The position numbers and the translations under genes are program-made. Below, in pieces: positions 2,449 to 64,000 of a stretch of 64,000 nt of DNA. Within the stretch, counting starts at the first letter, position 1. Every line of letters begins with the position of its first letter. The notes beneath the pieces are model-generated. The model was not told where the DNA came from, made no database searches, and was given only the letters and a program-made list of their open reading frames with translations. The stretch covers positions 74,976,671-75,040,670 of the forward strand of contig CM037598.1 in the NCBI GenBank assembly GCA_021018995.1, read 5' to 3'. The stretch comes from Chloranthus sessilifolius (Eukaryota > Streptophyta > Magnoliopsida > Chloranthales > Chloranthaceae).

Positions 2449-3259
2449 TGTTAGAAATTCTACCCACTCTACGAACTCCCTATTGCGATGAATGCGGAAA
2501 AATAAGAAGATTTAGGTAAAAATTAATGACACGCATAACACAAAGATTTACGTGGTTCACCCAATCGAGGGCTACGTCCACGGGAGTATATGCACTATTT
2601 TTATTGAATGTTTACATCATACACACTCTTCTCTCTAGTGCAAACTCAATCAAGATCTAACACGATCTTCAATAACAAATCTGTTGTTAAACCAAGGACG
2701 CGGTCCTTCAAATAATAGAGAAGAGATCTACTGGAATATAATCACGATTCTGACACAAGAACGACTTCAATCGGATCTTCAATCTCCAAGCTATTCTTCA
2801 ATATTTTTTCTCTCAAAGTATTCTCACAGATTTCTCACATGAAACTTTTTCCAAGCTCTCTCTTTCCCTAAAGAAAAAACCTTCTCACAATAGGCTCTAA
2901 GCTTTTTTTGGATACGTAACTCTCAAATCTCCTAAGAGTTGCAAGTATTCAAAACACTTCCAAAATAGTCTCATAATTACTTAGGAAACCTTGGCTAAAG
3001 TGAGATTCCCGAAAATAGCCAATTATATAAAACTTTCGGATCTATGTCAGCCCATCAGTCAATCGATTGACATCCCAACCTCAATCGATTGACACAACTC
3101 AATAGTCAATCCTGCGGGTCTGCTTCCGCTCATCAGTCAATCGATTGACTTTCCAATCTCAATCGATTGACACCGGTAGTTGACTTCACAAACTCAATCG
3201 ATTGATTTTCCTACCTCAATCGATTGATACCAATGGTTGGGATTAAACCTTATTCAACA
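2449..3259 (-). repeat. Copia 5' LTR
   Basis: On the plus strand the LTR begins TGTTAGAAATTC beside the primer binding site. The outer end is placed at CAACA (3259), giving short inverted ends (TGTTGAA.. and ..TTTCTAACA). It contains the block ACGTGGTTCACCC..CTACGTCCACGGG at about 2551-2583, common in plant Copia LTRs. The partner LTR is outside the window, so the outer boundary and target duplication cannot be confirmed. The outer 200 bp carry six palindromes, listed separately. Confidence 0.7.
3059..3227. repeat. Palindrome array A: six TCAATCGATTGA sites in three pairs
   Basis: Perfect copies of TCAATCGATTGA start at 3059, 3081, 3137, 3159, 3194 and 3216. They form three pairs, each with an exact 22-bp start-to-start distance, while the pairs themselves are 78 and 57 bp apart. 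The 10-bp spacers are not alike beyond a short pyrimidine-rich stretch. Location is the outer (U3) part of the Copia LTR. Confidence 0.9.
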
Positions 3260-3520
3260 CTTCTTTCTGGATCTAAGGATGTGTAGGATCATAAGCATGT
3301 GATGGCTTTTGATCACATGCCTATGCAAGTTTCATGCCCAAATGAAAAAGGAGTAGGGTTGGCATCAAATAAATATGAAAAATTATAAACCCCAAACAAC
3401 AATGCATGTGTCTAGGATTTGTCTGCAATTTAACGCTTGGGATATAACATAATAAATAATTGGTTGTAAAAACTCATTTGGCAACTCATAAATGTTAGTG
3501 ACTTAGTGTTTGCAACCCCA

Positions 3521-3621
3521 CCCAAAAATATGGGAATAAATGTAAGGGAGATTATGATGATGATGTTGTGACTCATCATCATCATCATAATCTCCTTTCC
3601 ATTTATTCCTACATTTTTGGG
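3521..3621. repeat. Long hairpin (foldback or pre-miRNA-like)
   Basis: Arms 3521-3565 and about 3577-3621 pair over 45 positions with only four non-Watson-Crick positions, two of which would be G-U in RNA. The arms start with CCCAAAAAT and end in ATGATG units, with a loop of roughly 8-11 nt. Either a tiny foldback element or a precursor-like hairpin; no target duplication was recognised. Confidence 0.7.
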
Positions 3622-4132: not shown

Positions 4133-5222
4133 CCTCAAATCTCTGATAAATAATTATTAACATTTACGAATAGCGCTAGCACTCATCAGACAACTCCTGG
4201 CTACGCTCCACAAACAACTTTTCAGTGGAACCTGAAGAGATATTAACCATTGTTGGTCCCTGTACAGCTTTCGTGGGCCACAGGGTGTATGAGATTGGAG
4301 TATCCGATCAAAAATAATTATTAATGGAAGAGGCACAACTCAATATTTTAATGTATTGAGAGAACATTTGAGCATGCTCCTCCTCATATCTATGAGGGTT
4401 GTAGAGGGACCCAAGTCCCAACAACCATCTACCATATAAGTGAACTGGTGGGCAAAGTTCTATAACTGGTACATATCCGTAAAATAACAGCCGGGTATTA
4501 GGCCAATACATATAAGACACCTTTCTAGTTAGTGGTAATGCAAGTTATCACTAATTGGTAATGCTAAGGTTCTATAATAGTGATGGTGCAAGTTATAACA
4601 CATCTTTCTAATTAGCTTGCACAATGACAAGTTGGGGTTATCAAACATTTTAATACGTTTCTAGTTTTGGTCTTATCTCTCTTCGGTTGTATTTTACGAG
4701 GTGATGGCAATGCCGAAGCTCCATATTGTATAACCTAGACTCTCTCACGGAAGCATTGCACCACTCTGAAGGCGCTCAGAATATTATTTTAAATTTGATG
4801 CATCAACTAGCAATGAATGAAAATATGTGGGCGGTGATATGCAGTGAAATATGATGATATTTTACCCCTAAAGACCTACATCTAGCTACCCGATGAAAGC
4901 CATTTAACATGTTTTATATAGTTTTAGTGATTTACAGGTCGGGAGATGCGTTGAGCATGAAATAACCCAAAAGTTCAGAATATAACGTCAAATTCGTGCT
5001 ACCTTGGATCATTTGGAACTTATCTCGACTTGGAGCTCAATTTGAACCTTCAAAACGTCAGATTCAAAAAATTGTCAAAACACAAAAGTTATAGAGCGCG
5101 TCGTCCGCTTTCCAATGCCACAAGACTCGCCTCAATCCGACTTCGGAATAAAAAGTTATGGCCGAAATACCAAGGAAATGTCTGATGTAAAGTGTAGCGA
5201 GAGTTCACGAAAATCTGGGAGG

Positions 5223-5335
5223 TCGATTGATCGACCCTTTTTGGTCGATCGATCGACCTAATCCGGAAGATTTGAAATTTCTAAAACAAAATCTGATATG
5301 GTCGATCGGTCGACCCTCTTTAGTCGATCAATCGA
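5223..5335. repeat. Palindrome array B1 in 5' LTR (two pairs, 22-bp spacing)
   Basis: Sites of the TCGATCGATCGA type start at 5223, 5245, 5302 and 5324, each pair exactly 22 bp apart. Some carry one changed base. The 3' LTR holds the matching set at 18116, 18138, 18195 and 18217 with the same spacing. Confidence 0.9.
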
Positions 5336-6017
5336 CAAAGTTTGAATTTGACTTCGGAATTGTCTTTGGCCGCGAGAATCTCGGTACTCTTTTCACGGAA
5401 TAAAATCTTGGATTCAAGGAGGAAAAAGCGGCTTCTGTTTTGGAAATTAGGGGGAAATATATTCTTGGAGATATATTCATTCGGAGAGCCTTCTGTTTTA
5501 GAGAGTTTTTATTATTTATTTTTTTTCTGCATTCTTCTGTTTTAGTTCTCTGCGTTTTAAAGTGTAAAGGCATTGAGTCTCAGTTTCTTGAACTATCTTT
5601 TTATTATTTATTTTTGAGAAGGAAGATAAGTCTTAGTTTTCTTATTTTGATCCACTTTCAAGAAGGAGGTGTACATACTTTGGATTAAAGCTTTCGTGGA
5701 TTTTTGTGGATAATTCTTTACGGTATTTTAATGGCATTTTCAACTTCTGCATTTATTTTATTACTTATTTCAGTTATGTGTGGCTAGTTTCATTAAGGAT
5801 GGGGATCTAATGAACCCCATCCGAGGTATTCATTTATATTAATATAAATCTGTGTGATTGAGATGTCAGATACTTTTTAAGACCCTAATATTCATTAAAA
5901 ATGGTGAAATCATTATTTCAGTTTGAGATCTAGGAGCTAATCATGCCCTATGATTTCAGATCTACAATAATGATTTTATCATAATTATACCCATCTCGGG
6001 GTGAAGTTTTACTGTCA

Positions 6018-6300
6018 TCTGAGGTGTGAGCGTTAATCACACACTCATGGGGAGTTAATCATACATCTCCTTGATCTTAGATTGATGGTGTGACTTTATC
6101 CCAGTGGTGAGTTCCAATCACTATTTGAGGTGTGGGTGTTAATCACACACTCATGGGGTGTTAATCATACATCTCCTTGATCTTAGATCGTACTTTAGAA
6201 ATTACCCTGGAGATTGGGTTCTAAATGTTGTCCAAGGTGTGAGTGTTAATCATACACCCATGGGATGTTAATCACACATCTCTGTGATCTCAGATCTATA
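6018..6300 (+). repeat. LTR minisatellite, three units of about 107 bp
   Basis: Three imperfect units each contain GAGGTGTGRGYGTTAATC, ACACTCATGGG and TTAATCATACATCTCCTTGATC blocks, starting near 6020, 6127 and 6235. The same three units occur in the 3' LTR at about 18914-19190, so the expansion predates this insertion. Confidence 0.8.
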
Positions 6301-6672
6301 TTTTAGAACTCACGTGTGTATGGGGCAGTGCTTCTTTTGAGAAATCTGTTAAAGATCTCACATCTCAATCCATAGATTGGTATTCTGTAAATGATAAACC
6401 TACAATGGGAAGATTTAGCATCCCAATCCTTATCTTTCATTAATTGCTTAATTCTTAGATTTCGTTATTATTTATCTCATTTATCAGAAGCTCTCAAAAT
6501 TCTAGGTTGTTGGTTACTGTGATAGATCTGTGAAAATTCTTTTAGTTAATTACTATTTTTTATTTTAAATTTTATAACCAATCCTCGTGGGAATGATCTC
6601 GTACTTTGCACCCACTGACTACATCACGATTCGTGCACTTGCGAGTACAACTTAATCAACACATCAAGTTTT

Positions 6673-6689
6673 TGGCGTCGTTGCCGGGG
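6673..6689 (+). other. Primer binding site, tRNA-Asp type
   Basis: TGGCGTCGTTGCCGGGG matches the complement of the plant tRNA-Asp 3' end at all but one position. This primer is typical of Athila-type elements. It lies 6 bp after the LTR. Confidence 0.88.
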
Positions 6690-6816
6690 ACTGGGCGTAG
6701 AAAATTAAATATTTTTGAAAAATAGAAAATTAATTTTTAAGAATCTTTGTAGGTTTGAACTCAGAAACTTTAAATTTTTTTTTTTTTTTTTTAATTTCAA
6801 ATTTTCAATATTGAGA

Positions 6817-7121
6817 TCGATCGATCGACCTGAACTGTCGATCAATCGACTCTTTTTTTTTAAATATATATATATATATATATTATTTTTTTTTGAGTAT
6901 CGATCGATCGACCAAAACAGTCGATCAATCGACCCTCCAAAATCTGTAAAAATCTTGCTCTTAATCTCCGGATTTCGAATTTTTTGAATTTAAAAAAAAT
7001 AAATAATAAATAATAAAAAAAATTTAATTCAAATTTTGAATCCTCGATCGATCGACCTTAAACGTCGATCAATCGAACATTCTCTTGGTCGATCAATCGA
7101 CCTAAACAGTCGATTAATCGA
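6817..7121. repeat. Palindrome array B2 in the untranslated leader
   Basis: Eight sites start at 6817, 6838, 6900, 6921, 7044, 7065, 7089 and 7110. They form four pairs at 21 bp. Typically a TCGATCGATCGA is followed by TCGATCAATCGA. They sit between the primer site and the gag ATG in AT-rich sequence. Confidence 0.9.
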
Positions 7122-7169
7122 AAAAAAAAAAAAAATAATAATAAAATAAAATTTCTTTGCACTTTGTGT

Positions 7170-9100
7170 ATGCACACGAGGTCTTCTAGAGATAAATCTT
7201 TAGAACCTCTGAATCCTGAGATTGAGCGAGCGTGTCGTTTAAAACGAAAAGAAGTTAGAACAGGTCGAGAAGCGAGAACCGAACCATCAATTCAATTCAA
7301 AATGAATGCAAACGGTTGTGAAAATCAATATCATGAAAATGAGGAGGAACCAACCCTGAGGGAGTTGTTTGCCCCAATTACTACTAATACTCCATCCTGC
7401 ATCACGTATCCCGCCACACCTGATGGCAGATTCGAAATCCGTACCAATGTGACACAAATCTTACCAATTTTTCACGGTATGGATAGAGAAGATCCATATC
7501 AACATATCAAAGACTTTGTTGAAGTCTGTTCATTAGTATATCAAAATTTCAATGAAGAATCTGTGAGATTACGTCTATTTCCTTTCTCTATAAAGGATAA
7601 GGCCAAAGCATGGTTAAACTCGTTACCAGCTGGATCCATAACCACCTGGGATCAAATGGTTAAGAAATTTTTGTCAAAATTCTTCCCCATGGCTAAGACT
7701 AATGCCTTAAGATGTGAAATCACCGACTTTACATAAGAAGATGATGAAAGATTCTATGAAGCCTGGGATAGATTCATGGATATCCTATTGAAATGTCCAC
7801 ACCATGGATTCTCGAAATGGAGATTGGTCCAATGTTTTTATAATGGATTGGATCAGGCAAACCGACATTTGATTGAATCCATGAACAGTGGAGGATTCTT
7901 GGGATTGAGAGAAAATGAATCATATCAATTCTTGGAAAAGTTAGCGGAAGACTCAAAATAATGGGACTTCTCTAGCAGTCGAGATCAGCCGAAGAAAAAT
8001 CGAGATCAAGCAGGAAGCTCAGCAAAGAAAGGAGGATTGTATGTGGTGAAAGAAACACCTGACCTGATGACAAAAATTGATTTCCTCACTCAACAAATTG
8101 AGGAATTGAAATTGAAGAAAAATATGCGTGTTGTAAATGTACAACCAGATCCATGCTCATACTGTGCAAGTCCAATGCACACATCCGACGGTTGCCCATC
8201 ACTACAAACTTACTCAGAAGATCCTAGTGAACAATTGAATGCATTGAACACTTATGGGCAGAATCAGGGAAATGTTTTTAATGAAAACAATCCAAATAGT
8301 TGGAAATATCATCAGAATTTCTCATGGAAACAAGGAAACCAAGGCAGAGGTCAAGGGATGAATTTATACCCAAATTAAAATTTCAGTCAGGGACCACAAC
8401 AACAGTTTGGTCAAGGACAATTCCAACATCACTATGGAGGAGGAAACCAATTTTACCCAAATCAAAATCAAAATGTGCAACCTAGGCAATCGAATCAGAA
8501 TTATCAGTTCTCACAATCAACAAGTCAACAAGGGTTTGCACAAAAATTTCCTCCACCAGGGTCAATAATCAACAAGGAAATGTTGCGCCACGTCAGCACT
8601 AGAATCAATACCCTCAAAGTGAGGATATATGGAAGTTTATTCAATCCAATACCTCTTCGATATCAAGGATAGAGACACAACTTAGGCAACTGGCGACACT
8701 CCTCTGCGAGACAGAGAAGGGATCATTCCCGAGCCAGCCAATTCTGAATTCAAGAGGACAGATGGCTATTGAGTAGACCTCGACCTCATCTCAGGAGGAG
8801 AGCCAAAAACAGATCAAGGCCATCACTACATTGTGATCTGGGAAGCAAATCGATAGCAAAGTAGAAATGCCAGAAGAGGAGGAGAAGCATGAACCTGAAG
8901 TCGAAATTGAGAAGAACAAAGCAGGAGCAGAAGAGAAACAAGGAAATCAAGAGAAGAAGATGGAAGATAAGAGCGAGAGAGAGAAGAGTTTCATACCCAA
9001 GGCCTCATAGCCTCAAAGGCTAGTGGGACCAAAGAAGAATCGCTATCAGGAAGGAATCATTGAAATGTTTAAGCAACTGAAGATAAATATTCCCTTCCTA
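7170..9100 (+). pseudogene. gag: Athila-like gag, broken
   Basis: The ATG at 7170 opens a basic N-terminus (HTRSSRDKS.., EIERACRLKRK). It leads into a retrotransposon gag domain (about residues 85-200) with the usual DPYQHIKDFVEVC and AWLNSLPAGSITTWD blocks. A CCHC knuckle is visible at about 8155-8197: Cys-2-Cys-4-His-4-Cys (CSYCASPMHTSDGC). Gln-rich repeats follow. In-frame stops fall at 7734, about 7959 and 8376, then a frameshift lies between about 8590 and 9000, with more stops near 8775, 8842, 9008 and 9113. Many are explained by single C-to-T changes at Gln or Arg codons. Gag forms the particle and packages element RNA; this copy cannot. Confidence 0.85.
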
Positions 9101-9115
9101 GACGCCATTCAGTAG

Positions 9116-9655
9116 GTGCCAGCATATGCTAGGTTTCTAAAGGATTTGGTCACGATAAAGCGAAAGACTAATGTCCCAAAGAAAGCCTTCTTAGCAGAAC
9201 AAGTAAGCTCAGTTCTACAAGCAAGACTTTCAATTAAATATAAGGACCCTGGATGTCCTACAATTTCAATCATCATTGGGGAGAATCGCATCGATCAAGC
9301 ACTCCTAGACCTTGGAGCAAGTGTCAATTTGTTGCCATACACAGTGTACAAGGAACTTGAGTTGGGGGAACTAAAACCCACAGCTATGACCCTTCAACTT
9401 GCAGATAGGTCAATCAAGATTCCTAGGGGCATAGTCAAAGATGTCCTGATCAAAGTAGACACTTTCTACTTTCTAGTTGACTTTATTGTATTGGATACGG
9501 AACTCATTCCTCAACACAGAAATAATGTCCCCATAACTTTAGGAAGACCATTCCTGGCAACATCAAATGCACTAATCAACTGCCGAAATGGGATAATGAA
9601 TTTGTCATTTGGGAACATGACTGTGGAACTGAATATTTTTCATATTACAAAATAG
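9116..9655 (+). pseudogene. Athila-like aspartic protease region
   Basis: This retropepsin-like segment of pol would cut the polyprotein. The active-site motif appears as LLDLGASVNLLP, the DLGAS form usual in this lineage, around 9304-9340. It is followed by TLGRPFLATSNALI, the second half of the fold. It reads in a different frame from gag but the same frame as the following RT. A stop at 9653 (TAG, probably from CAG) separates it from an acidic linker read through 9911. No initiation codon of its own is expected because it is part of the gag-pol polyprotein. Confidence 0.83.
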
Positions 9656-9952
9656 CCTGCTGAAGATGAGGAACATGCACAAGTTTGCATGATTGATAAC
9701 ATTGTGAAAAATAAATTTTTTGCTTCAGAATATGAGGACCCTTTAGAGGCCTGTTTAGCACATTTTGGTAAAGACTTCGATGTGGATAAGATGATACACG
9801 AGATTAATGAGATGCTAGACTCAACACCACTCTTGAGAGAAAATGAATGTGAACTGAAAGATGAGAAAAAGGAAGAAGATAGCAAAGAAGAATCGCATCG
9901 ATCAAATGAATGAGAGAAACCAAGGCTGAAACTAAAACCCCTCCCTGCGGAT

Positions 9953-11428
9953 TTGAAATATGCATACCTGGGTATAGATGAAACTGAGCCAGTAATTATT
10001 TCGACAAATTTAAATAAAGATCAAGAAGAAAAGCACATCAAAGTGCTTCAAGACCACAAGAGTGCGATCGGATGGTCTATCAAAGACATTAAAGGAATCA
10101 GCCCAACGGTGTGTATGCACCGAATTCATTTGGAAGAAAGCGCTAAACCCTCAAGAGAACCACAACGTAGATTGAATCCAATAATGAAAGAAGTGGTGAG
10201 AAATGAGGTCATTAAGCTGCTAGATGTTGGGATCATATATCCAATCTCCGATAGCACATGGGTAAGCCCAACACAAGTGGTACCCAAAAAGTCTGGAGTT
10301 ACAGTGGTGAAAAATGAGGAGAATGAGCTAGTACCAACGAAAGTTCAAACTGGCTGGAGAGTGTGTATTGACTACAGGAAGTTAAATTCAATGACTAGAA
10401 AGGATCACTTTCCTCTCCCATTCATTGACCAAATGTTAGAAAGATTGGCCAGGCACCAATACTATTGTTTCCTTGATGGCTATTCTGGATATAATCAGAT
10501 AGTCATTGCACCAGAAGATCAGTAAAAGACAACGTTGACATGTCTCTTTGGAACGTTTTCTTACCGTCGAATGCCGTTCGGACTTTGCAATGCTCCAGCT
10601 ACATTCCAAAGGTGTATGCTGAGTATATTCTCTGATATGGTGGAAAGATTCCTGGAAGTCTTCATGGATATTTTTTCTATTTATGGAGACAACTTCGGTG
10701 ATTGTTTGTATCATCTATCTCTTGTTCTTGCGAGATGTGAAGAGAAAAATCTGGTTCTGAATTGGGAAAAATGTCATTTTATGGTGCAACATGGTATTGT
10801 TCTGGGACATATTATATCATCCCGAGGAATTGAAGTGGACAAAGCTAAGGTGGAATTGATTTCAAACCTTCCACCACCAAGAACAGTCAAAGAAGTAAGG
10901 TCATTCCTTGGACACGTCGGTTTTTATCGGCGTTTCATAAAGGATTTCAACAAAGTTGCAAAACCGTTGTGCAACCTACTGGCTAAAGATGCGCCATTCA
11001 GCTTTGATGAAAAGTGTACAAATGCCTTTGAAAGTATTAAGGCAGAATTGGTCAGAGCCCCTATAATCCAACCACCAGATTGGAAGCTCCCATTCGAAAT
11101 CATGTGTGACGCATCAAATTATGCGATCGGAGCTGTTCTTGGACAAAGGGTAGAGAAAGTGCCGCATGTCATCTACTATGCAAGTCGCACTTTCAATAAT
11201 GCACAATTGAATTATTCTACCATAGAAAAAGAACTCGTAGCAGTAGTCTTTGCCTTGGACAAATTCCGATCTTATTTGTTGGGATCAAAAGTGGTAGTGT
11301 TTACTGACCATGCAGCTCTTCGCTACCTCTTTTCAAAGAAAGATGTAAAAGCTCGATTAATTCGATGGATTCTACTCTTACAAAAATTTGATCTGGAATC
11401 AAAGACAAAAAGGGATCAGAAAATGTAG
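9953..11428 (+). pseudogene. Athila-like reverse transcriptase and RNase H
   Basis: RT blocks are seen in order: VSPTQVVPKKSG, WRVCIDYRKLNSMTRKDHFPLPFIDQM, FLDGYSGYNQI, then a stop at 10523, [29 protein letters not shown], and the catalytic box. The box reads FMDIFSIYG where FMDDFSVYG is expected, so the second catalytic Asp is gone. RNase H follows ([41 protein letters not shown]). One base is missing near 11398, which shifts the frame and ends it at 11428. Reverse transcription by this copy is not possible. Confidence 0.88.
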
Positions 11429-11439
11429 TTGCTAATCAT

Positions 11440-12831
11440 TTGTCTCGAATTATTGTTGAAAAATCTGAGGATCTGATTTCAATTTTGGAAAGTTTTCCTG
11501 ATGAACAATTACTCGCTGTTAAAAATCTACCATGGTATGCAGATCTGGTTAATTATTTAGTGACAGATCAGATACTTGAGCATTGGAATAAAAATGAGAA
11601 AGCTATCTTTCTAGCACGAGCCAAGCATTACTTCTTTAAGGACCCGTACCTGTTCAAATATTGTGCTGATCAAATCATCAGAAGGTGCATTCCAGAACAG
11701 GAGCAGTCAAAAATCATATCATTCTGTCATGAGTTGTCCTGTGGAGGACATTTTAGCTCAAGGAAGACTGCAACGAAGATTTTCCAATGTGGATTTTACT
11801 GGCCAACAGTCTTTAAAGATTGTCATCAGCACTGCATTTCATGCAGTAATTATCAAATGCTAGGCAGAATTTCAAAAAGAAATATGATGCCTTTAAATCC
11901 AATCCTAGAAGTTGAACTGTTTGACGTATGGGGAATAGACTTCATGGGCCCATTCCCCAATTCTTTTGGAAATTTATACGTCTTAGTTGCAATGGACTAT
12001 GTCTCAAAGTGGGTGGAAGCACTGGCCTGTAAAACTAATGACCATAGAGTAGTGGCTAAGTTTCTTAAAAATGAGTTATTTCCAAGATTTGGTACTCCAC
12101 GTGTGATTATTAGTGACGGTGGAAAGCACTTTTGTAATAAAGCTTTCGCTTTGCTGATGAAGAAGTATGGGATCACACACAGAGTGGCTATACCATACCA
12201 CCCTCAAACTAGTGGACAATTCGAAGTTTCAAATCGAGAAATCAAACGTATTCTAGAGAAAACGATAAGGCCCAATCGGAAGGATTGGTCGTTGAAATTA
12301 AACGACGCACTCTAGGCATATCGGACAGCGTTCAAGGCCCCCATAGGAATGTCTCCCTATCGAATGGTCTTTGGCAAGGGTTGTCATTTACCTGTTGAAT
12401 TGGAGCATCGGGCCTATTGGGCTGTTAAGTCTTTGAACTTCGATTTGCACAAAGCTGGGGAGAAGCGAAAATTGGACATTACAGAATTAGAGGAAGTGAG
12501 AGCTGATGCATATGAGTGTGCCAGATCTTACAAAGACCGCATGAAGCGTGTTCATGATCCATCTATTTTGAGGAAATCATTCACTGTGGGACAGAAGGTG
12601 TTATTGTATGACTCAAGATTACATTTGTTCCCCGGTAAGCTCAAAACCCGATGGAGCGGTCCTTTCTTGGTAAATCAAATATTTTCAAACGGGGCAGTTG
12701 AGCTATGCAATTTGCGAAATGAAAGTACGTTTCGAGTCAACGGGCAACGGGTAAAACCGTTTTTGGAAAATTATATTAACAAGATTGATGAACTTGTGTT
12801 GAGAAATCCCGATCAATCGGGATCAAACTGA
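11440..12831 (+). pseudogene. Athila-like integrase
   Basis: The zinc-binding HHCC region is visible (CHELSCGGH.., CHQHCISC). It is followed by the catalytic core with the first Asp in WGIDFMGPF, the second in IISDGGKHF and the Glu in [13 protein letters not shown] at 12313 falls at the usual Trp of the ALWAYRT block. The C-terminal domain continues to 12831 ([27 protein letters not shown]), with no chromodomain. The polyprotein ends at the TGA after 12828. Integrase would join the cDNA ends to host DNA; the target duplication of 5 bp fits Gypsy integrases. Confidence 0.88.
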
Positions 12832-12944
12832 AAATTTTGAAATGTCGGGCTAGCGACGTTAAACTTAGCGCTTCTTGGGAGGCATCCCATGTTGTTTTCA
12901 GTGATTTACACTTTCGAAAAAAAAAAAAAAAAAATTTGAATTCG

Positions 12945-13266
12945 GTCGATCGATCACCTATAAGACAAATGTCGATCGATCGACCTAAACAGTCGATCGA
13001 TCGTCAATTGAATGTGGGCATTAATCACTGCGCCAATTTTTTATTATTATTATTTTTTTTTAAATTTGTCTTTATGAGTCGAACGATCGCTCTTCTTGGT
13101 TGATGGATCGACTCTACACATTGAAAATTGAATTCAAGGTCGTGTCAGTTCCAATTCTGCATGCGCCGACGTCGATCGATCGACATTTATTAGGGCATCG
13201 CGCTTTGATTGCGCGTCTTTTTAACGCCTCTGTCGATCAATCGACATATACATGTCGATCGATTGA
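12945..13266. repeat. Palindrome array B3 between pol and ORF3
   Basis: Sites start at 12945, 12972, 12993, about 13172, 13232 and 13255. Neighbouring spacings are 21-27 bp where they are paired. The sequence is otherwise non-coding. Short open frames here are only translations of the palindromes (RSIDR-like). Confidence 0.85.
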
Positions 13267-13402
13267 CCTATATGTCGTGTCCGAACAGAGGGGGTGCCTT
13301 TGTGTTTATTTAAAGGACCGAGCGTCTCTCATTTTCCACATCCCCTTCAGCATTGGAAGTTCTCTGCAGAGGTCTCTGACATTCTTTCTGACATTCTTTG
13401 TG

Positions 13403-14524
13403 ATGGCGTCATCCTCTTCTGCCAGACTTCCGTAGCGTCCTGATGGCATTTTTCGAGAACGACCCAAAGGTCATTTTGCCACCAAGGAGATGTCCTCTGA
13501 ATACACTTACGATCTACCGGCATTCCAAGCAATGCCCGAGTGCGCCATCTCTCTTGCGTACATTGCTGCTCTCAACCTTCATTTCTTGATGAATCCACCT
13601 GATATCAACATCTCAAAGCGGGTCGTCCGCTTGTTTTATCAAAACATGGTTTGGGTGGCTGCCTCAACCATAACCAATGAGGCGGCCCATTTCACCGTTT
13701 CCATCGATGGTTGGAAGCGGAAAATCTATCTGCGCATGATCGCGGATGTATTTGGAATCATTGATGAGCGACCAATGGATCACCCACTTGGTGAAGAACT
13801 CGACGTTGAGCATGGCCCAATGATCGATGATATGTGCAATGGTGTCTATGCTGCCAGAGGAATTGCTACTAAACGATTGGCTCTCCCGCGCGACATTCTA
13901 CTTTGGGACATCATCGTTTCCTGTAGTCTATGTCCACGAGGACATACCTCTGAAAGAACTGGACCTCGGGTGAAGGCCCTATATGGTGGCTACAAGCGCT
14001 CGTGGTTGAACATCCCATGGTTTTTGCACTATTCAATGTGGCGATGCCACGATGAAATTGTTAACCCTCCTACTGGTGATGCTGCCCTCATCTACTTCCC
14101 TCATCTGGTGATGCAACTTCTACATCACCTTGATTTCCCTTTTTATCTTGATGATAATATTGGGAACTTGACATTCTATCGCTATGGGCCGTCATAGTGG
14201 AATCGGAGCATGCGTATGTTGGGCAATGTGGATGCACCACCTGCAACCCATGCCCGTCAACGCCGTCGAGTGCACCATGAAGAGGCTGCCGCAGAAACGG
14301 AACAAGCACCCGAGCCACCCCGCAATGAGGGAATCTCCCTCGAACTAATGCAGGCTCATATCAACTCTTTGATCGATGAGCAACAGCGGCAATATAATCA
14401 CAATCTCCGTCGTAGCCGATATGATCAGTCATTTATGCATCAGTTGGGTCAACACCTGTGGCCCGATGGCTATGACGAGATGAGGGCTCGTGCACGACAA
14501 GCAGAAGAAGAAGATGATGATTAG
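13403..14524 (+). pseudogene. ORF3: accessory protein resembling the 'putative plant transposon protein' family
   Basis: One frame runs from ATG 13403 (MASSSSARLP) to 14524, interrupted only by TAG near 13433 and TAG at 14195. The central part has a hydrophobic SISLAYIAALNLHFLMNPPDI start, then KRVVRLFYQN and VSIDGWKRKIYLRMIADVFGI, then a Cys/Trp-containing segment. The C-terminus is helical, Gln/Arg-rich and ends in acidic residues. The pattern V-x-R-x-FY followed by a short strand-like motif and a leucine-rich helix recalls the plant transposon-associated domain often predicted next to Gypsy elements. A related ORF occurs in the chromovirus at 34240-35802. Function is not known; I infer a nucleic-acid or regulatory role only from its position. 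Confidence 0.65.
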
Positions 14525-15117
14525 GATTAGGATTTCTTTTTGCGTTATTTGTATTAATCTATTTTTCTTTGATTTCTTAGTATCTTAGGACTAGATTTTA
14601 CTTTTCATCTTTATTAGGTTTATAAAAATATTGTATTAAAAAATAATAAATAAATAAATAATCAATAAAAATATCGAAAAATCTTCTCTTAATTTCTGCG
14701 TCAATAATGTCAGTCGATCAATCGACCATTCATGGTCGATCGATCGACTTTGCAAAATTATTTTTGATGATTCTGTTTGGATTCATCTGTCGATCGATCG
14801 ACCAAGAAAGGTCGATCAATTGCGCTTATAAAAAGTCAACTTCCGTTGACTGGATTAGTCGATCAATCGACCCCTTTTTGGTCGATCGATCGACTACTCG
14901 GCATTAAAAAAAAAAAAAAAAATTAGAAAAAAATAGGACGAGCAATACACTCCGTTGAACTTTTCTTTTTAGTAGTTTAATTCTTTTAGGAGTCTTTGTT
15001 TTCCTTCGTAGAACTCTTTCGGCCATTCTCAAACACTCCTTTTCTATTTATACCAAACTCCCTGGATCATTGCTTCCATCATTTTTTCGTCCACCCCCTC
15101 CTTCTCATATTTCTTTA
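14525..15117. other. Spacer between ORF3 and ORF4 with palindrome array B4
   Basis: AT-rich, non-coding. Palindromes start at 14714, 14736, 14790, 14812, 14859 and 14882, three pairs at 22, 22 and 23 bp. The stretch just before ORF4 (15038-15117) is pyrimidine-rich. Confidence 0.75.
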
Positions 15118-15654
15118 ATGGCCGGCAAAACTTACTTCACAAGGTTTACTCTAAGGAAGATGGATGAACCAGCAAGGAAACGAGAACGGATTTCGGGAAC
15201 ACACCCTCCGTTGGATCTCACCAACGTTAATGTGGTCGATCTGGACCCCATCCCTGTTCCATTGTGGGAAGAGCCAGCACGTAAAAGAGTGAATCGTTCC
15301 GTCAAATCCACCCCATCCTTCTCCATCGATATCGAGATGATTGATTTGGATGCGCTTCCGTCACCGCCCCTTATCCCAAATTCACCATCTATACCACCAC
15401 CTACTCCATTGGCTGCTTTAATCCCTAAATCAATTCCCAAGGAGGTTATTGATCTCATACCGATTGAGACTTGGGCGAAATGGTATCCGGCTCCAACACT
15501 TCGGGATCTGACCTCGAGTAGTACGCCAAACCCTTCACCACCACCGCCGGATGTGATTCCTGCTTCCTTAAATCCGAGGAGGATCACCACTGCAATGTGG
15601 GATTTCGCGTTTCCCAAGCCAAAGCCAAGAGAGTGGACCGACGCGGATGTTTGA
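15118..15654 (+). CDS. ORF4: intact proline-rich accessory protein, unknown
   Basis: From the ATG at 15118 (MAGKTYFTRFTLRKMDEP) an uninterrupted frame of 178 residues runs to TGA at 15654. It is the only sizeable frame of the element without a stop or frameshift. Two repeated EPARKR boxes (about residues 16-21 and 51-56) look like short basic patches and could serve in nuclear import. Two VDLDPIPVP / IDLDALPSPP segments follow each of them, then a proline-rich middle and a C-terminus rich in Trp and Pro (TTAMWDFAFPKPKPREW). No catalytic motif, membrane segment or zinc finger is seen. I do not recognise the family. It could be an accessory protein or a chance frame in a low-complexity region. 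Confidence 0.5.
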   Translation: MAGKTYFTRFTLRKMDEPARKRERISGTHPPLDLTNVNVVDLDPIPVPLWEEPARKRVNRSVKSTPSFSIDIEMIDLDALPSPPLIPNSPSIPPPTPLAALIPKSIPKEVIDLIPIETWAKWYPAPTLRDLTSSSTPNPSPPPPDVIPASLNPRRITTAMWDFAFPKPKPREWTDADV

Positions 15655-15892
15655 GTGTCGAAATCAAAGAGTTTTTTCGGATGTTCTACGAAGTTTAGGA
15701 TATTTTAGGATGTTTAGGATTAAATTTTTAGATGTTATTTTCTGTTCTTAGGTAGCTTTAGGATTTCCCTTTTTTTTTTTGGATTGAAAAAAAAAAGTAA
15801 TTTCTAATAATTTTCTTCAATCAATTTTATTTCAGTTTCACTTATGCGTCTCACTTCCTTTGCCTGTTTGGTCTTTGAGTATTTTTCATTGC

Positions 15893-15958
15893 AGGTTTGG
15901 GGGTGCCCCCGTTAATTTTGGTCCAATGAGGACATTGCACAAACTAGGTTTGGGGGTG
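15893..15958 (+). other. Two internal polypurine-tract-like copies
   Basis: AGGTTTGGGGGTG occurs at 15893-15905 and 15946-15958. The terminal tract just before the 3' LTR is AGGTTTGGGGGTA (17715-17727). All three share the same 12 bases. Confidence 0.75.
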
Positions 15959-16008
15959 TAGTCTCTCTTACATTTTGAAAAATAAAAAATAAAAAAAATC
16001 AGATTTGG

Positions 16009-16063
16009 TCGATCAATCGACCCTTCTTGGTTGATCAATCGACTCTCTTGGTCGATCGATCGA
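16009..16063. repeat. Palindrome array B5
   Basis: Three sites start at 16009, 16031 and 16052 (spacing 22 and 21 bp), directly after the internal polypurine-like copies. Confidence 0.88.
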
Positions 16064-17714
16064 CTGAGCACAGTGATGTTTTGTGTGGAATTTAAAAATT
16101 GATAAATTATCTGATCTAAAATGAATATTAAATGCAATTTCGTTTCATTGTTCTTAGGAGAGAAGAGCTAAGGTGAAATTGACATATAAATCTTAAACCC
16201 GCTCTTGAGGAGTTTTTGATGTTTGATTCAGTTCAAAGAGTTTAAATCATGAAAATTTATCAAAATTGTGAACTGTAAGGATTTTAGTGGAGATTAAAAT
16301 CCGGTGAGCTTTAGCGCCAATTTTCCGTCCTTGATGAGTGCTTAAATAAACTCGAAGTTATCTTTGAATACGAATTATTCTTGCATAAGCTCATACATTT
16401 TATTTTGACTTGTGACTTTGTATGACATTAAATTTATATTATTGTACTATAACATATCATAAGTTTGCTCAAGACAAATAGGCAGAGTTACCATCTTTTG
16501 AGGGCGTGATTGAAGGCCATCATTGGCTCGTTTGTGCTTAAAATACTCCACCTCATATAAATTTATCCTTCTAGTACCCCTTTGAGCCTATTAAAAAATT
16601 TACCTTTATATATTCTTTGATAAGCCACGTTAACCTTTACCCCTTCACCATTTCTGAAAACTCAACCTTACCCCTCTTATTTCTGAGAAATTAGGAACGA
16701 GGGATGAGAGTGAGTGAAAAGAGAGTAAGTGGAGAGATACCGAGTTGTGATGTTTACTGAGAGTGTATGACAAAAATATTAAAAAAAAAAGAGGAGAAAA
16801 AGAAAAAGAAAATTTGAAAAAGAATGAAAAATATGAGGTGCTGTAAGAAGATGAAATTCAAAAGAAGGTTGAGAAAAATAGTGAGAGATTACGAAAAAAA
16901 AAAAAAGGAGAAAAGAGAAATAGAAGAGTCAAAAGTTAGTTTTATATTCCAATTTCTCAGAAATTTTGAATCCCAACTTCCATTTCTTTCTTACCCTTAC
17001 CTAAGCCCCATTATAACCCTATAAAAGACCTTCATGATCCGATCTTGCATTGGTAATTGCCTAGTGGAGAGCAAATATGTGATACCTATGGAACTTGATA
17101 TGACATGCTTAGAATATACAAGTATCTGTTCTTATGAAATTTATCTTTGTTCATTGATTACATCGTGTTTCACTTATCATGTGAGACCTTTTTGCTTGCT
17201 TTGTATTGATCTCTCACATGTGTGCGAAAACTTACCCATCATCAGAGTGATTTTAGTTTGAGAAGTATACTTATTGTGAGGTTTGAATCAAAGCAAAAAT
17301 CTATGCAGTTCACAAATAAGATAAATTCTCAAATAAAAATTATTTGATATGATGACCACATTGAAACATCTAAAGATGGGCGAAAAAAATTTATCTGTAA
17401 ATTGAAGCATTAGTTTAGCTTAACAAACCATCAATGGAAATGACATGGCATGCATAGTACTTGTGGAAGAAATGCATAATGAGATCAATTAATAAATTCC
17501 ACATAAATTAATGCCTTGAAGTTTGTGGGTAACTTCACTGAAAACCCTTAGGAGACAAAACTCCTCCACTAGGGATCACCCAGCGGTTTAAAGGCTTGTT
17601 GCATATGCTAAATGCAATCGTGCTCCCTACGAAAGTGGCATTTATTTTCTTAGGTTGTTAGTTTATTTTTCAGTTTTATTTATCTTCTCCTTTGCTCGAG
17701 GACTAGCAAAGTGT
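16064..17714 (+). other. Athila-like 3' non-coding tail
   Basis: No gene is seen. The stretch holds poly-A/GA-rich tracts around 16770-16925 and the block CTCGAGGACTAGCAAAGTG just before the polypurine tract, a sequence style common at the 3' end of Athila/Tat elements. Open frames at 16824-17261 are short and featureless. Confidence 0.6.
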
Positions 17715-44564: not shown

Positions 44565-44569
44565 GTAAA

Positions 44570-48623: not shown

Positions 48624-48626
48624 AGA

Positions 48627-48885
48627 GCATGGTATTAACTATCAGCCGATACCGATATATATCGATTTTTTGGTATACCGATAAGTATCAATGCCAATAC
48701 GTATTGAGTATCTAACTTGGTGTCGGTATCTGTGTCTGCCGATACGTATCGGGTATCAGCCTATACCTATATTTTTATTTTTTATTTTTTTATTTAAATT
48801 GGCCGATCCAAATCGGTATCGGCCGATTAGTCCTCTAAGGACCAATACCCGATACCGATACCGATACCGAATTTGTTACCTTGGT
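48627..48885. repeat. CGATAC-rich dispersed repeat, copy 1
   Basis: Starts GCATGGTATTAACTATCAGCC and is built of CCGATACCGAT, CGATACGTATCG and GGTATCGGCCGAT motifs. A second copy with the same start is at 59015-59235 and a third, more diverged, at 50337-50545. Confidence 0.75.
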
Positions 48886-51739: not shown

Positions 51740-53498
51740 TCAGACAGAATCGATCAAATGGATATTCTCCAAAGCAAATCCCTCCTTGTGGCCACCCTTC
51801 ATCCTCATCTCCATTACCTTCTTGTGTGAACACGAGTGCTCGGACGCAACAAACGTAGGGCTAGCTGCGGGTCGATATTCAGGATAGAGCCTACCTGACA
51901 TGTATCGGACACCACAAGCATTACATAAAGTACGGGGGCCCATCGGCCCAGCCCTCCATTGTGGGGTCTTCTCTATTCCACAATGCAAGCACTTACGCGG
52001 CGACCCCAATCGAAGCTTCCTCTTCTTCTTTTTCTTCTCCTCTTGTTCGTCATCATCCGAATTTGGTAGTATCTTTGAAGAGGGGGAGACAAATGAGATG
52101 GAGCTGGTTTCGGAGGATGTGGGGGAGAGGTGGGAGACAGAGCGGGATGATAAGGAAGCAGGGCGGGGACGCTTGCTACGAGCACGGCTAGGGACCAGGG
52201 TTTTGAGGGGGATGAATTCTTTAGAGCAAGTGCTACTTTCAAGGACCGAGATAGGGCTCGCAGCAGTTTGATAAGTGGAGTCGTTGTTGGGGCTATGGTT
52301 ATCGAGGTCTATGATATTCCTGGCCGAAAAAGAATCTTCGACAAAATTCGAAAGCCATTCCAATTGTGCAATGTCTTCACACTGAAAGAGATAAGAAATG
52401 GGTCAATTCAAAATGGTCAAGCTGGATATCGGGTGATGAAATCAGATATCGCTTACTCATAAATAAAATTAAATAAGGCTATGACGATAGTGACGATGAA
52501 AATCAGATCAATTTATTTGGGCCATACCATCCGATATGACTCAATCGGACGATAACTAATCCAATCGTCTCAGTATCGAATCTGGGTAACCTGTATGCTA
52601 ATATTTGGGCCCGGTTCGGCCCATTCACACCTACTTGGAAGTTTTTCTTGGGTTCGACTCCCTAGCTCATAAGAGCCCCATCAAACCTTCAAGCTTGGGC
52701 TCAAAGATGGCCCATGGATCTCAGTGTAGCCTCTCACTGGCCCAAAGGCCACCCACCCATCACATTATATTAGCCTATAACTAATGGGTTGGTAGTGAAC
52801 GATAGTCCCTCATCGCCTTGGCCAATGGCCTTGAGTTATATATAAACCTAGGCAAAACCTCACCTTACAAGCTGGTTCTGTGAGGTTGAGTTAGCCCCAT
52901 GAAATTCTACAGGTATTAGGTACCCGACCCAAGTGCCAGCCTTGCCATCCGAGTTAATCTCCTTCCTACACCCTTGGGTAATGCATAGATTTTGCCGCCA
53001 AATCATTGAAATGTCAAAAGTGTATTTCTATTGATTTGTGTGCTCATAAATAACTGAGCACTTCCCGAGGCTTGACCATTTGATAAGGAGATTGACCACT
53101 CGAGTCGAGAACCTAATATGAAATTAATCTACTAATTAATCCTAACCATATGATCAATGCACTATCTAACTTAAAAAATTCATACATAAACTAAGCTAAA
53201 TTGTGGATATTGATCGGATGGTTAGAATTATTTGATCTCTCGAGTGATTCCCCTGGGCAATTCATATCAATGAACACTTTCATTTCTAGAATCTGAAAAA
53301 ACCGGGTTGGAAATTTACCGGCACAGAGAGTTCCGTTAAAAGGCTATCTCCAGTTGAAGTAGAGCTAGACATAGCCAAAACATCTTCGAAGACACCACCT
53401 CCCTCTCCACCGAGAACGAAGCCTCCCAAGTCATCATTTGGGAAAACCAATAAATCATCGATCTGGTCAAAAAAGTCGCCGCACATCTCTGCGCCCAT
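51740..53498 (-). CDS. GATA-type zinc-finger transcription factor (plant subfamily A), two coding exons
   Basis: Exon 1 is 53498-53319 (60 codons from [20 protein letters not shown]). A 937-bp intron (GTAAAT..TTTCAG) follows, then exon 2 from 52381 to the stop at 51740; the total is 273 residues. The N-terminal acidic part and the junction motif (SLLTELSVP / [19 protein letters not shown]) match plant GATA1-4-type proteins. A Lys-rich stretch (about 176-183) is a probable nuclear signal. The zinc finger is Cys191-X2-Cys194-X18-Cys213-X2-Cys216 ([16 protein letters not shown].. CNACGVRY), with the [13 protein letters not shown] tail typical of the subfamily. Such factors bind WGATAR in the nucleus and act in light and hormone responses. 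The intron holds repeat debris. No break is seen, so the gene is probably functional. Confidence 0.93.
52382..53318 (-). other. GATA gene intron with repeat remnants
   Basis: Non-coding. About 52615-52975 looks like a degraded LTR or TRIM-like insertion: it has TTATATATAAACCTAGGC and CCTCACCTTACAAGCTGG-type blocks. The part near 52480-52600 has CGATA-type motifs. Confidence 0.5.
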
Positions 53499-60412: not shown

Positions 60413-61449
60413 ATCAAAAACTGCCCACTGTTTATAAGTATGACCTTTAATTTTTAATGTGAATCATGATACTTTATTATATATATGGGTCAAGATTTCA
60501 GCCAAAAGCACGTTATATTATCTGTTTTGTATTGGTTTTGAAGCTAATCAGGTTGATATATACCATTGTATCGTCCAAGACTGATATGCATCGAGTTTGA
60601 AGTTGGCCGATAATTACTGGAAGTCCTAGATTATAACCTATTGATTGTGGGATTTCAGTACTGCACGCCAATCTTTGAATCTCAGCCATCTGATCTCTTA
60701 TATATATATAACCTTGACTCTAATCTACTGTACTAGAGCCTTTCATTTAATAGCCAGATATTTTTTATCACATTTTACTAATAAATACCCTACAGTACAC
60801 ATGCTATACGCGTGAGAATTTCTTTTTTTAAAAAGAGAATTATTCCCTTAGTAAATAAAGAACACTGTATGCAGCATGTGGCTATCACCGTCAACTATGA
60901 TGGTGCCCCCAATCCCTATGCACAAATTGGTACTTCTCTCTACCATGGGCCGGGCTCGGGCCTCAAGTTCTACTATAAACGGGCCATGTTCGAGACGGGC
61001 CCTTATTCAAAAATGGCAAAAATTCAAGCTCAAGCTCGGCCCCTTGCCACTGCCAGTTCTCTCTAAGGCTGTAAATGGGTCACGGGCCCGAGTTGGGTTC
61101 AAGTTGACAATCTTGACCCGTCGAATCGTGTCAGGTACGGTGTATTCGGTTTGGTTTGGTCGGTTTTGGACCAAAACCACAAACCAAACCAGTTCTAATC
61201 AGTTTCTAAATATTCAAACTAAACCAACTCATCCTACTGTTGAAACAAACCAACATGATTCGATACGGTTTTGGTTTTGGTTTGGTTGGGTCGGTTCGAT
61301 TTTTGTAATAATCCAAAAAATCAGACCTAAACTTGACTGGCCTCGTATGTGTGATCGACACGAAAATCGATGTCATCATAAATTTTTATATAATAATAAA
61401 TATTTAAATAATATTATGATAACTTTATGCGGACGGATTAAGGTTTAAA
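60413..61449. other. Non-coding stretch with low-complexity pyrimidine/purine repeats
   Basis: GGGCCGGGCTCGGGCC-type repeats near 60945-61050 and GGTTTTGGTTTGG-type repeats near 61140-61310 resemble the interior of the MITE at 49649. No gene is recognised. Confidence 0.5.
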
Positions 61450-64000
61450 TATGTGTTTGGGCCTTTAGTGTGAAAGCCGTGACCGACGCACTATGTGCCG
61501 CTCAACACCGAAACCAAACTCTATTTCAAATGGATAAGCCTAACACACTTTTGCAGTGTTATCGCTTCGCACCGAAACCAAGCCCTTTAGCTAATTAAAA
61601 GACAAAGCTTCTCAAAGAAGCTTCGCCCGGTTGCAAAGCTTTGGAGTTTGGATTTCTAGAGAGAGAAAGAAGAGAAAACTTTCGCCCTTCTTGAGATTTC
61701 GACGACGAGATCGTGATCACGCCGCAATATTTGCATTATTCACGAAGAACTCGACGCCGATCAACGCTTGAATCCCGCCTTTGGTGAATTTCGACCGTTT
61801 AAACCCTATTTTTCGAAGAATGATCATTTTACGATCATTTCCCGTGCTTGGAAGAGGTTAAGATCGACGCGTAAGGATGAGCAACGTCATCTTGAGTTCA
61901 TTGTGATCGATCTCTGTGGATTCGTTATAAAAATCCGAAGGTTTCGCTTTAAAACCCTCGTTCGGCAACATTTCTACTAATTCACGAAATCGATCGAAGA
62001 AAGGTTAATTTTCTTTAATTTAATGGTTTAGATTGTAGAATAAATCATTGTTTAGTTTAGTGTGTATGTGTGTGTGATTCGATGAAGATCGTAGAAGATT
62101 TGGATAGAAATAGATTAAAAAATGATAAAATCACATGTTGTGCATTTCTGAAGGTTTTGATCGATCAATTAGGTAATTGATCGATCAATTTGGGTATTGA
62201 TCGATCAACTTAGGTGGTTAATCGATCAAATCTGGTATTGATCGGTCAATCATCCATATTTATCGATCAAATTGTATATACAATGATAAAAACAGCAAGT
62301 TTATTATTGGAAGTTCATTCCCGACAGAATTGATCGATCAATGGTAAAATTGATCGATCAATGTGATGGTTGATCGATCACGGGTGAAATTGATTGATCA
62401 GTGTGGAATTGATCGATCAATATGATGGGTTGATCGATCAATTTGACTGTGCCGACACTGCTTCAGTGTTTTGGCCATAATTTTTTACTCCGAACTCCGA
62501 TTGATGCGATTCTTACGAAATTAGAAAGAGGACAACTAAATCTACAACTTTTATGAATTAACTAATTGATGAGTAAATTGTTTTGATGATCAAAATTAAG
62601 CTGGAAGTTTAGCCAAGTTCTAAGTTAGCACGTTTTGACTGAAGTATCGATATAGCTTCGGTATTTTGGTCATAACTCTTTGTCCCAAACTACGATTGAT
62701 GCGATTCTTGATGCGTTGGAAAGAGTACGACGAGATCTAAATTTTTTATGAATTAACCAAATCTTTAATCAAATATTTTGAGGGTCAAAATAAAGTGGGA
62801 AGTTGAGTCAAGTTTCGAGTCAATACAAAATTACCCATTTCCGTCTCAATTTTGAGAAAACACTTAAATACGTCAATATTATTAATAATTAGAATCAATT
62901 TTTATACATCATTATGTGCGTGATGTAGACTAAGAGTGGAGGCCGTGGATAAGAACTTTTCGATTGCTTTGGAACGGCGTTGGATTGCTTAGAAAGATCC
63001 GTTAAGGTATGGGAAATCCAACCTAAAATATATCTGACTATGATTTCATGATTCTTTCACATCAGTACCCTGATTTCTGTTTTAAAAAACATGTTTGTAT
63101 AGTGATAAAGTTCTGTCATCTTTGATTCCTGCATTCTGATTTTTGTATACTGAAACCTGTTCCTGATTTCTGTTATCTGATTTTTGAGGTTATATGTGTA
63201 TATGCGATTTAAGGATTTAACCAGATGATCCCCACCAACTCGGTGGTATATCCATATCCTGACACAATCGTGCATCTGCTTTGATAATCTCTTTGCACAA
63301 TTGCACTCCATAGATGAGGCATTGTTGCACTCTAAATAAATTGTTCATATGAACGACGATTGGTTGGGGTTTTCTATCGGCATATTCCTGATTACTCCGT
63401 GCTATATAGTCACGAGAGTTTCTTAAGTTAAAAATATTCACAGTTTAAGTCACAAAATATATATATGCATAACATCTGTTCTTATTTGAAAACTCAATAC
63501 ATGTCATATGATTTATCCTGTCTTCATATTCTGATTTGATTTTCTACTTTGAGATACTACCAGTAAATCATATCTTACATTTTCAGTATAATTTTAGTTG
63601 AGATTCTTCTACTGAGCTTAGATATAGCTCACCTTATTTTCTATAACATTAATAAGTTATGAGGCTAGATTTCCCGATACTGAGAGCGAACCTGACTACT
63701 AGCCTAATCCGGAGGCTGAGGTTGAGGAGGAGAATACCAATACCCCTGCTGACAATCACCACCCGTAGCTAGGGTATTTGATTAGACTGGATATTTTGGG
63801 ATCCATATATGTTTTGGGTTATTGTGGTTTTGGTGGCCACGATTTTGTACTTAAAACTTTGTAGATACTTTATTTTCTTTTGTATACATCTTATAGGAAC
63901 CACTACTTGGAACCATTGTTTTTGTGTGACGGATGTCCATCACTAGTGGTTCTTCTTGATTCCTTTTTGGGGATGTATTTTCTTTTGTTTTTATATATAA
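61450..64000 (+). repeat. Partial LTR of a further Gypsy-type element
   Basis: The order of blocks resembles the Del/Tekay-like LTR at 27213-29719. There is a leader-like part, an array of palindromes, and a region with CACCAACTCGGTGG. TGAGCTTAGATATAGCTCACC near 63620 corresponds to TGAGCTAGGATGTAGCTCACC at 29214. It is followed by an acidic pseudo-coding stretch. The right end is outside the window and the left boundary is unclear, so no target duplication can be tested. Confidence 0.6.
62157..62441. repeat. Palindrome array D: two runs of six TTGATCGATCAA sites
   Basis: Run 1 starts at 62157, 62177, 62197, 62218, 62238 and 62259; run 2 at 62330, 62350, 62370, 62390, 62409 and 62430. Spacing is 19-21 bp throughout. 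Some copies have one or two changes, which hit the outer units or the centre. Confidence 0.92.

Follow-up and report, generated by a model that had tools for sequence, protein, structure and literature searches.

We analyzed a 64,000-nucleotide window of the Chloranthus sessilifolius genome (C15:74976671-75040670; assembly size 2.17 Gb), in which four families of long terminal repeat (LTR) retrotransposons carry regularly spaced arrays of one class of 12-bp palindrome. The arrays were first noticed in a first-pass annotation of this DNA; the observation is confirmed here and its extent exceeds the original statement. What is new is a spacing specific to each version of the palindrome, the occurrence of one version (TCAATCGATTGA) across three kinds of element, a switch of version in four arrays between two related elements, and a related extra open reading frame (ORF) in five array-bearing elements, whose product may bind the arrays.

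The window contains 103 matches to TYRATYRATYRA, the pattern of three TYRA units in a row, compared with a mean of 3.1 and a maximum of 8 in 50 runs of an order-3 Markov null, and 68 of these sites are perfect palindromes. They are distributed over a Copia element (6 sites), an Athila-like element (26), a chromovirus family (63, made up of 48 in element B, including one lone site, and 15 in a separate LTR) and a last array (8), and the versions that had been named for these four families were all found in their places. As to the claim that the sites avoid ORFs, a single site, at 37943 (TCAATCGATCGA), lies in a pol ORF, which fits the chance number, and the remaining 102 of the 103 are outside pol. 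The arrays, together with the elements and extra ORFs to which they belong, are as follows (PBS, primer-binding site).

1-1365: SH3_retrovirus and GAG-pre-integrase domains of the Copia element (domain matches)
2447-3259, minus strand: 5' LTR of the Copia element, 813 bp; its partner LTR, 94% identical, lies just left of the window (L025:7132-7943)
3059-3227, minus strand: Copia array, six of six sites TCAATCGATTGA, three pairs 22 bp apart
4835-19245, plus strand: element A, Athila-like Gypsy, with reverse transcriptase, RNase H and integrase and a PBS-like site (TGGCGTCGTTGCCGGGGA) near 6673
5223-5335, plus strand: array of the A 5' LTR, TCGATCGATCGA class
6817-7121, plus strand: leader array of A, in the interval from PBS to gag, eight sites, mostly pairs at 21 bp
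12972-13266, plus strand: array of A from pol to the extra ORF
13436-14521, plus strand: extra ORF of A (aORF1), Transposase_32-like, with a PF20167 match under the curated cut-off, in two adjacent stretches separated by a stop
14714-14893, plus strand: array of A from aORF1 to aORF2
14959-15654, plus strand: second extra ORF of A (aORF2), proline-rich, no Pfam match, weak relative in L027
16009-16063, plus strand: array of A downstream of aORF2
18116-18228, plus strand: array of the A 3' LTR
27209-29722, plus strand: separate B-family LTR copy, orientation opposite to B
27805-28228, plus strand: array of the separate B-family LTR, TCGATTAATCGA class
31460-44568, minus strand: element B, chromovirus-type Gypsy, LTRs of about 2.5 kb, zinc knuckle and SH3_Tf2-1
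32884-33349, minus strand: array of the B 3' LTR
34243-35814, minus strand: extra ORF region of B, Transposase_32-like, split over frames
36072-36732, minus strand: array of B from pol to the extra ORF
43517-43961, minus strand: array of the B 5' LTR
62157-62441, plus strand: last array, TTGATCGATCAA, beside sequence homologous to the flank of the second array of locus L023

Counts over the whole genome, each made alongside the reversed pattern as a control, gave 676,872 matches for all TYRA forms against 26,494 reversed, 42,168 copies of TCGATCGATCGA against 84, 65,226 of TTGATCGATCAA against 317 and 64,441 of TCAATCGATTGA against 79. We also sampled 20 stretches of 10 kb (L005-L024), placed by hand and blind to sequence. 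They hold 93 sites compared with 2 reversed ones, with at least 10 sites in 6 of the 20 loci and only 4 of the 93 isolated; 60 of the 93 are palindromic, where 33 would be expected under independence of the three dinucleotides. The commonest non-simple 12-bp palindromes in this sample are TCGATTAATCGA (36), TCAATCGATTGA (13), TTGATCGATCAA (10) and TCGACTAGTCGA (6). Describing the class as TYRA three times is too narrow, since TCGACTAGTCGA, which is not of TYRA form, and TCGATTAGTCGA are arrayed as well. A microsatellite origin was rejected, as in our judgement neither the fixed 12-bp length nor the differing spacers fit it.

Start-to-start distances peak at 19-22 bp in the window, and 38 of the 80 neighbour distances below 130 bp in the 20-stretch sample fall at 20-22 bp, so the enrichment and the predominant 20-22 bp spacing originally described both hold outside the window. 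The spacing depends on the palindrome version. Of the TCAATCGATTGA neighbours separated by less than 30 bp, all 10 in the window, L022 and L025 and 16 of 17 in L027 lie at a distance of 22 bp. Among the genome matches listed, which are the first places on one chromosome and thus a non-random sample, 28 of 34 distances for TCAATCGATTGA (L027 included) are 22 bp and none is 19-21 bp, 9 of 12 for TTGATCGATCAA are 20 bp and the other 3 are 21 bp, and the TCGATTAATCGA type gives 19 distances of 21 bp, 10 of 20 bp and 4 of 19 bp out of 35 in the first 58 places listed for the TYRA pattern. Sites in element A are spaced 21-24 bp. No peak was found at a periodicity of 10.4 bp, and the signal is the 20-21 bp repeat itself.

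The version of the palindrome can change throughout an element. A has a relative in L027 (about 68.5% across 1.6 kb around the 3' end, 50% at the integrase end and 32-41% in extra ORF 1), and the two have arrays at the same four places, that is, between pol and ORF 1, between ORF 1 and ORF 2, after ORF 2, and in the LTR. All four belong to the TCGATCGATCGA class in A, with no TCAATCGATTGA, whereas in L027 TCAATCGATTGA accounts for 9/11, 6/6, 4/5 and 8/8 sites, respectively; the 6-kb part of L027 has 30 sites, 27 of them palindromic and of one version. Slippage acting locally would not by itself bring four separate arrays to one version. B and L023 provide another, looser case; their integrases are 62% identical, and their versions differ in both the gap and the downstream array. 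L024 is mixed, with mainly TCGATTAATCGA and TCGATTAGTCGA downstream and mainly TCGACTAGTCGA and TCGATTAGTCGA forms in the gap.

The same version may also be shared by elements of different kinds. TCAATCGATTGA at 22 bp is common to the Copia LTR, the chromovirus-type L022 and the Athila-like L027. In L022, which has a pol end with SH3_Tf2-1 and an integrase 58% identical to that of B, the LTR apparently starts at about 893, directly after pol, with an array at 1670-2246 (read from the sequence of a single LTR). Pol domains or similarity place elements A, B, L022, L023, L024 and L027 in Gypsy. Once the motifs were masked, no locus compared other than its own partner LTR gave a match to the Copia LTR, and comparing L027 with L022 and with the Copia region gave none either; common descent as the sole cause was rejected on these grounds. 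The pattern does cross the Copia/Gypsy divide, but the further statement that common descent does not explain it went too far. Shared ancestry is part of the explanation, since the flanks of the last array and of the second Gypsy array of L023 are homologous over about 1 kb (E 1e-104, motifs masked) and A, B, L023, L024 and L027 have a related extra ORF. Family-specific co-evolution of motif and binder, likewise, agrees with the switch between A and L027, whereas strict family specificity fails with TCAATCGATTGA in three kinds of element.

The extra ORF resembles Transposase_32 in A (E 5e-6), B (4e-8) and L024 (4e-5). The A and B ORFs match each other (E 1e-9), L024 and L023 match the B ORF in tblastn searches (E 4e-77 and 5e-36), and the L027 ORF matches that of A, so that the five array-bearing elements appear, by sequence similarity, to encode a related protein. 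Between B and L024 the proportion of synonymous differences (pS) in the ORF is 0.757 and that of nonsynonymous differences (pN) 0.200 (pN in pol, 0.118), and pN exceeds pS in shifted frames; no ratio is given because synonymous divergence is saturated. These values point to coding constraint on the extra ORF between the two elements. In the genome, a loose first look returned 42,797 candidates for this ORF, of which 150 were scored; all of these are 74-100% identical, and more than 20 have open frames of over 500 amino acids. Palindromes are strongly over-represented in the non-coding gaps of A, B, L023 and L024 (best z 11.8-26.5, shuffle maxima 4.6-5.2), L027 has 11 sites upstream of its extra ORF, and nine pol or random controls gave z of 2.6-5.2, B pol being slightly over its own shuffle maximum (5.2 versus 4.6). 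We consider the link between array and ORF strong but not strict.

Two further loci have short repeats in the same region. At L012:4080-4580, between pol and a Transposase_32-related ORF, there is an array around TCGCGA, in which the 10-mer CGCGAGATTC is repeated 11 times (shuffle maximum 8) and some CG have become CA or TG. Two or three TCGATTTNNAAATCGA sites about 20 bp apart precede the extra ORF at L013:9320-9380 and are too few to test. L021, whose pol is of chromovirus type (54% to B), has no TYRA site.

Comparison of related copies indicates that the motif is better conserved than the spacer. Between B and the separate LTR, 10/164 non-CpG motif columns have changed versus 32/205 spacer columns (p=0.005) in one test and 8/168 versus 30/204 (p=0.002) in another, the two tests sharing one sequence. 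The LTR pair of B, diverged since insertion, shows no significant difference (0/144 versus 5/223, p=0.16). When only A/T columns and transversions are counted and the motif is compared with all the rest, the separate copies give p=0.05 and 0.02, and the LTR pairs of B and A give no significance.

Within families, the variants do not behave as had been suggested. Changes were said to be placed symmetrically, as random deamination would not do; they are in fact mostly one-sided, with 17 one-change and 2 symmetric departures among chromovirus sites and 12 and 1 among Athila-like sites, and symmetric change at the level of single sites was rejected for this reason. In A, TCGATCAATCGA makes up 10 of the 26 sites and its reverse complement one, so the sites there are oriented and not strictly symmetric. 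A reading in which mobile lineages keep the symmetry and dead copies decay in one half after the other suits B more than it suits A. Raw counts of changed CpG in motifs versus elsewhere, taken without a significance test, are 11/36 versus 14/60 in the B LTR pair, 7/32 versus 21/66 for the B 5' LTR against the separate LTR, 8/30 versus 20/67 for the B 3' LTR against the separate LTR, and 1/10 versus 10/42 in the A LTR pair. The earlier suggestion of binding sites for a dimeric protein is thus supported in part: dyad symmetry, version-specific spacing and the better conservation of motif than spacer fit it, whereas strict symmetry of the sites fails.

From the sites, their spacing and versions, the switch between two relatives and the shared conserved ORF, all observed, we infer binding, a dimer, the identity of the binder and anti-silencing. 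The arrays would be dense sites for sequence-specific homodimeric proteins, in which neighbouring sites are bound cooperatively at a spacing set by each protein, and they lie in the promoters of LTR retrotransposons and elsewhere in their non-coding sequence. The likeliest binder would be the Transposase_32-type extra-ORF protein encoded beside the arrays in several elements, which would activate its own element or counteract its silencing, much as VANC proteins act on VANDAL transposons. After a change in the specificity of the binder, the arrays of the element would be replaced in concert, partly by tandem duplication, and Copia elements and chromoviruses in which no extra ORF is visible may in some cases use the same factor through the same version. 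We hold this combination of cooperative dimer sites, element-encoded binder, anti-silencing or activation, and concerted replacement tentatively, with a confidence a little short of even. In a bolder form, the Athila-like and chromovirus elements would possess a fast-changing homodimeric activator or anti-silencing protein of Transposase_32 type, with palindrome and spacing as a code or "password" that switches over whole elements, and Copia elements and ORF-less chromoviruses would forge the code of others; in all these particulars it seems unlikely.

Several results weigh against an extra-ORF binder. The Transposase_32 matches of A, B and L024 all lie below Pfam's curated cut-off; an AlphaFold model of the extra ORF, built on a two-sequence alignment, reached a predicted local distance difference test score (pLDDT) of 29; and protein P0001 had no relative in the protein database and P0003 none in PDB. 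L013 has the extra ORF, and its pol-ORF gap lacks a significant palindrome array (best z 2.8), and L012 is borderline, with a different 10-mer (z 5.4, shuffle maximum 5.5). Only 12 of the 26 sites of A are perfect palindromes. CpG loss in the motifs is comparable to that in the rest of the LTR, with no clear sign of lasting demethylation. A single pair of elements underlies the switch, and the choice of L027 was guided by the large number of sites listed there. Finally, L022 has an array in its LTR and no extra ORF visible between pol and LTR; since L022 lacks a visible extra ORF and the Copia element is internally short, a host factor fits these two better.

The main alternative would thus be one transcription factor of the host, or a few paralogues whose dimer sites differ slightly: the elements would have converged on, or exchanged, an enhancer, and switches would reflect a changed host factor. 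This appears a real possibility, though a doubtful one. It would account for the same version at the same 22-bp spacing in a Copia LTR, an ORF-less chromovirus-type LTR and an Athila-like element, as well as for the position of the Copia array, which precedes a TATA-like stretch (TATATAA, 3029-3023) by about 30 bp, and sites of stress factors were mainly recovered in the Sirevirus motifs of Bousios et al. (PMC2829016). It accords poorly with the many sites in internal gaps, far from the LTR promoter, and 27 of 30 sites of one version within 6 kb are, in our judgement, dense for a host enhancer. We give an element-encoded binder a slight edge over a factor of the host.

Neutral tandem duplication and gene conversion, in which a 20-22 bp unit spreads by slippage and homogenisation yields the versions with no protein involved, is improbable, although some results speak for it. 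The spacers had been described as unrelated, which is wrong for four of the five groups: they are more alike than all 300 letter-shuffled sets in the Copia array (three spacers only), the Athila-like element, the chromovirus LTR and, narrowly, the chromovirus internal region, and are no different from 300 such sets in the last array, and part of the likeness in the Athila-like element comes from G and C letters next to the sites, which lengthen the motif. A 21-bp unit distinguishes the two LTRs of B, and L022 has larger repeated units. Against this stand the better conservation of motif columns than spacers between separate insertions, the identical version and spacing in three elements without other detected similarity, the joint difference of four separate arrays between A and L027, and palindromy above independence. 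A role at the RNA level (packaging, dimerisation or small-RNA production), for which each palindrome could pair with every other copy in the transcript, is highly improbable, because C>T changes, which preserve a G-U pair, show no clear excess over G>A when read in the sense of the element (18 versus 13 in B, 4 versus 11 in A without the 3' LTR) and a fixed spacing near two helical turns would have no clear meaning in RNA.

Some features of the elements and of the rest of the window should be added. The Copia element (L025:7132 to window 3259) has an inter-LTR interior of only about 2.5 kb and is therefore probably non-autonomous; its LTR in the window carries six sites and the partner LTR four, and we take the letters at about 2446 to be an iMet-type PBS. 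The name Athila for A rests on its domains, its PBS-like site and general features of Athila elements. Its LTRs contain a tandem repeat of 106-107 bp (6022-6308 and 18913-19189), and past the end of the matched 3' LTR (19245) positions 19246-19458 repeat the initial 213 bp of the LTR in inverted orientation. The relative of B in L024, with an integrase 82% identical, carries a chromodomain. The last array is probably a Gypsy LTR, judged from the L023 homology, which superseded a weak similarity to B (z 3.1); no LTR pair was found within 10 kb to its right. A module of about 130-170 bp, about 69-74% identical and in either orientation, occurs at 5013-5182, 62454-62623 and 62649-62814 of the window and at L016:8574-8734, L023:8347-8509 and L021:1318-1445; it lies near the palindromes in A and beside the last array. 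A search of the window for 10-mers repeated four times within 500 bp returned the palindrome arrays and one CACTA-like region (48304-48813), whose part at 48304-48627 resembles a CACTA terminus and has numerous subterminal repeats of GGAGACGGC type, ending in ttttttgtagtg. An ORF at 51740-52402 with a GATA zinc finger (PF00320) is probably a host gene. One pattern searched in viral contigs gave no match.

In the open literature (titles and the starts of abstracts, subscription papers and preprints lying outside this scope), we found no such arrays in Athila or chromovirus elements, no version shared across superfamilies and no such switch. A conserved extra ORF beside matching, switching palindrome arrays allows a direct test, namely whether each such protein recognises the palindrome version and the spacing of its own element. 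If so, this would be a sequence-specific self-recognition system of retrotransposons that other elements could exploit; if a host factor binds instead, a single regulator, or a small family of them, would have several hundred thousand sites to contend with in one genome.

En/Spm of plants offers a first parallel, as its TnpA protein has many short repeated subterminal binding sites. TnpA is an element-encoded activator of its own element, correlated with demethylation (PMC10398659); En/Spm differs in being a DNA transposon. Additional ORFs between pol and the 3' LTR are known from plant LTR retrotransposons, where tandem arrays are common in the same region and TRP28 of Retand is predicted to bind DNA (PMC7264820, PMC11728184, PMC11963269). 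In sunflower Athila, the 3' additional ORF has partial similarity to Transposase_32, and its protein has a predicted nuclear signal (PMC11728184). The function of such ORFs is described as an open question (PMC7264820, PMC11963269). In contrast to the present case, the available text of these three papers does not tie the extra ORF to a repeated palindrome or a motif version (PMC7264820, PMC11728184, PMC11963269).

The closest known counterpart is the set of repeated motifs of Sireviruses, which are palindromic, number 8-32 copies per element and lie in LTRs; they are also found upstream of the env-like extra ORF in elements that have one, and their versions vary between elements (Bousios et al. 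2010, PMC2829016). That study describes them in 13 Sireviruses (Copia), in 12 of which the motif has a CGG-CCG core, and the classic Ty1/copia elements compared lack them (PMC2829016). As in Sireviruses, at least eight palindromic copies, LTRs included, are present here (26 sites in A, 12 of them palindromic, 48 in B and 30 in 6 kb of L027), and internal copies lie upstream of the extra ORF in A, B, L023, L024 and L027, but not in L013, L012 being borderline. The motif ACAATCGATTGT of the Sirevirus Tnd-1, which also lacks the CGG-CCG core, is two letters from TCAATCGATTGA (PMC2829016). The arrays described here differ in that their hosts are Athila-like and chromovirus-type Gypsy elements as well as Copia, in their version-specific spacing and switch of all arrays compared, and in the lack of a CGG-CCG core in the versions TCGATCGATCGA, TCGATTAATCGA, TCAATCGATTGA, TTGATCGATCAA and TCGACTAGTCGA.

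The targets of VANC in VANDAL elements, which are Mutator-like, provide the nearest parallel to the proposed mechanism: short motifs dense in non-coding parts are gained and lost as tandem repeats, evolve together within an element and differ between relatives, and the protein acting in trans is encoded by the element (PMC5735166, PMC10398659). The arrays here are likewise dense in non-coding regions and gained and lost as tandem units, and the motif changes together across the element in one pair, A and L027. Unlike them, VANDALs are DNA transposons, and the VANC motif YAGTATTAY is non-palindromic and arrayed in one orientation; binding and demethylation have been demonstrated for VANC, whereas for the palindrome arrays we infer them. 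If the code-like reading is true, these arrays would represent, as far as searched, the first retrotransposon counterpart of VANC, and one that spans superfamilies.

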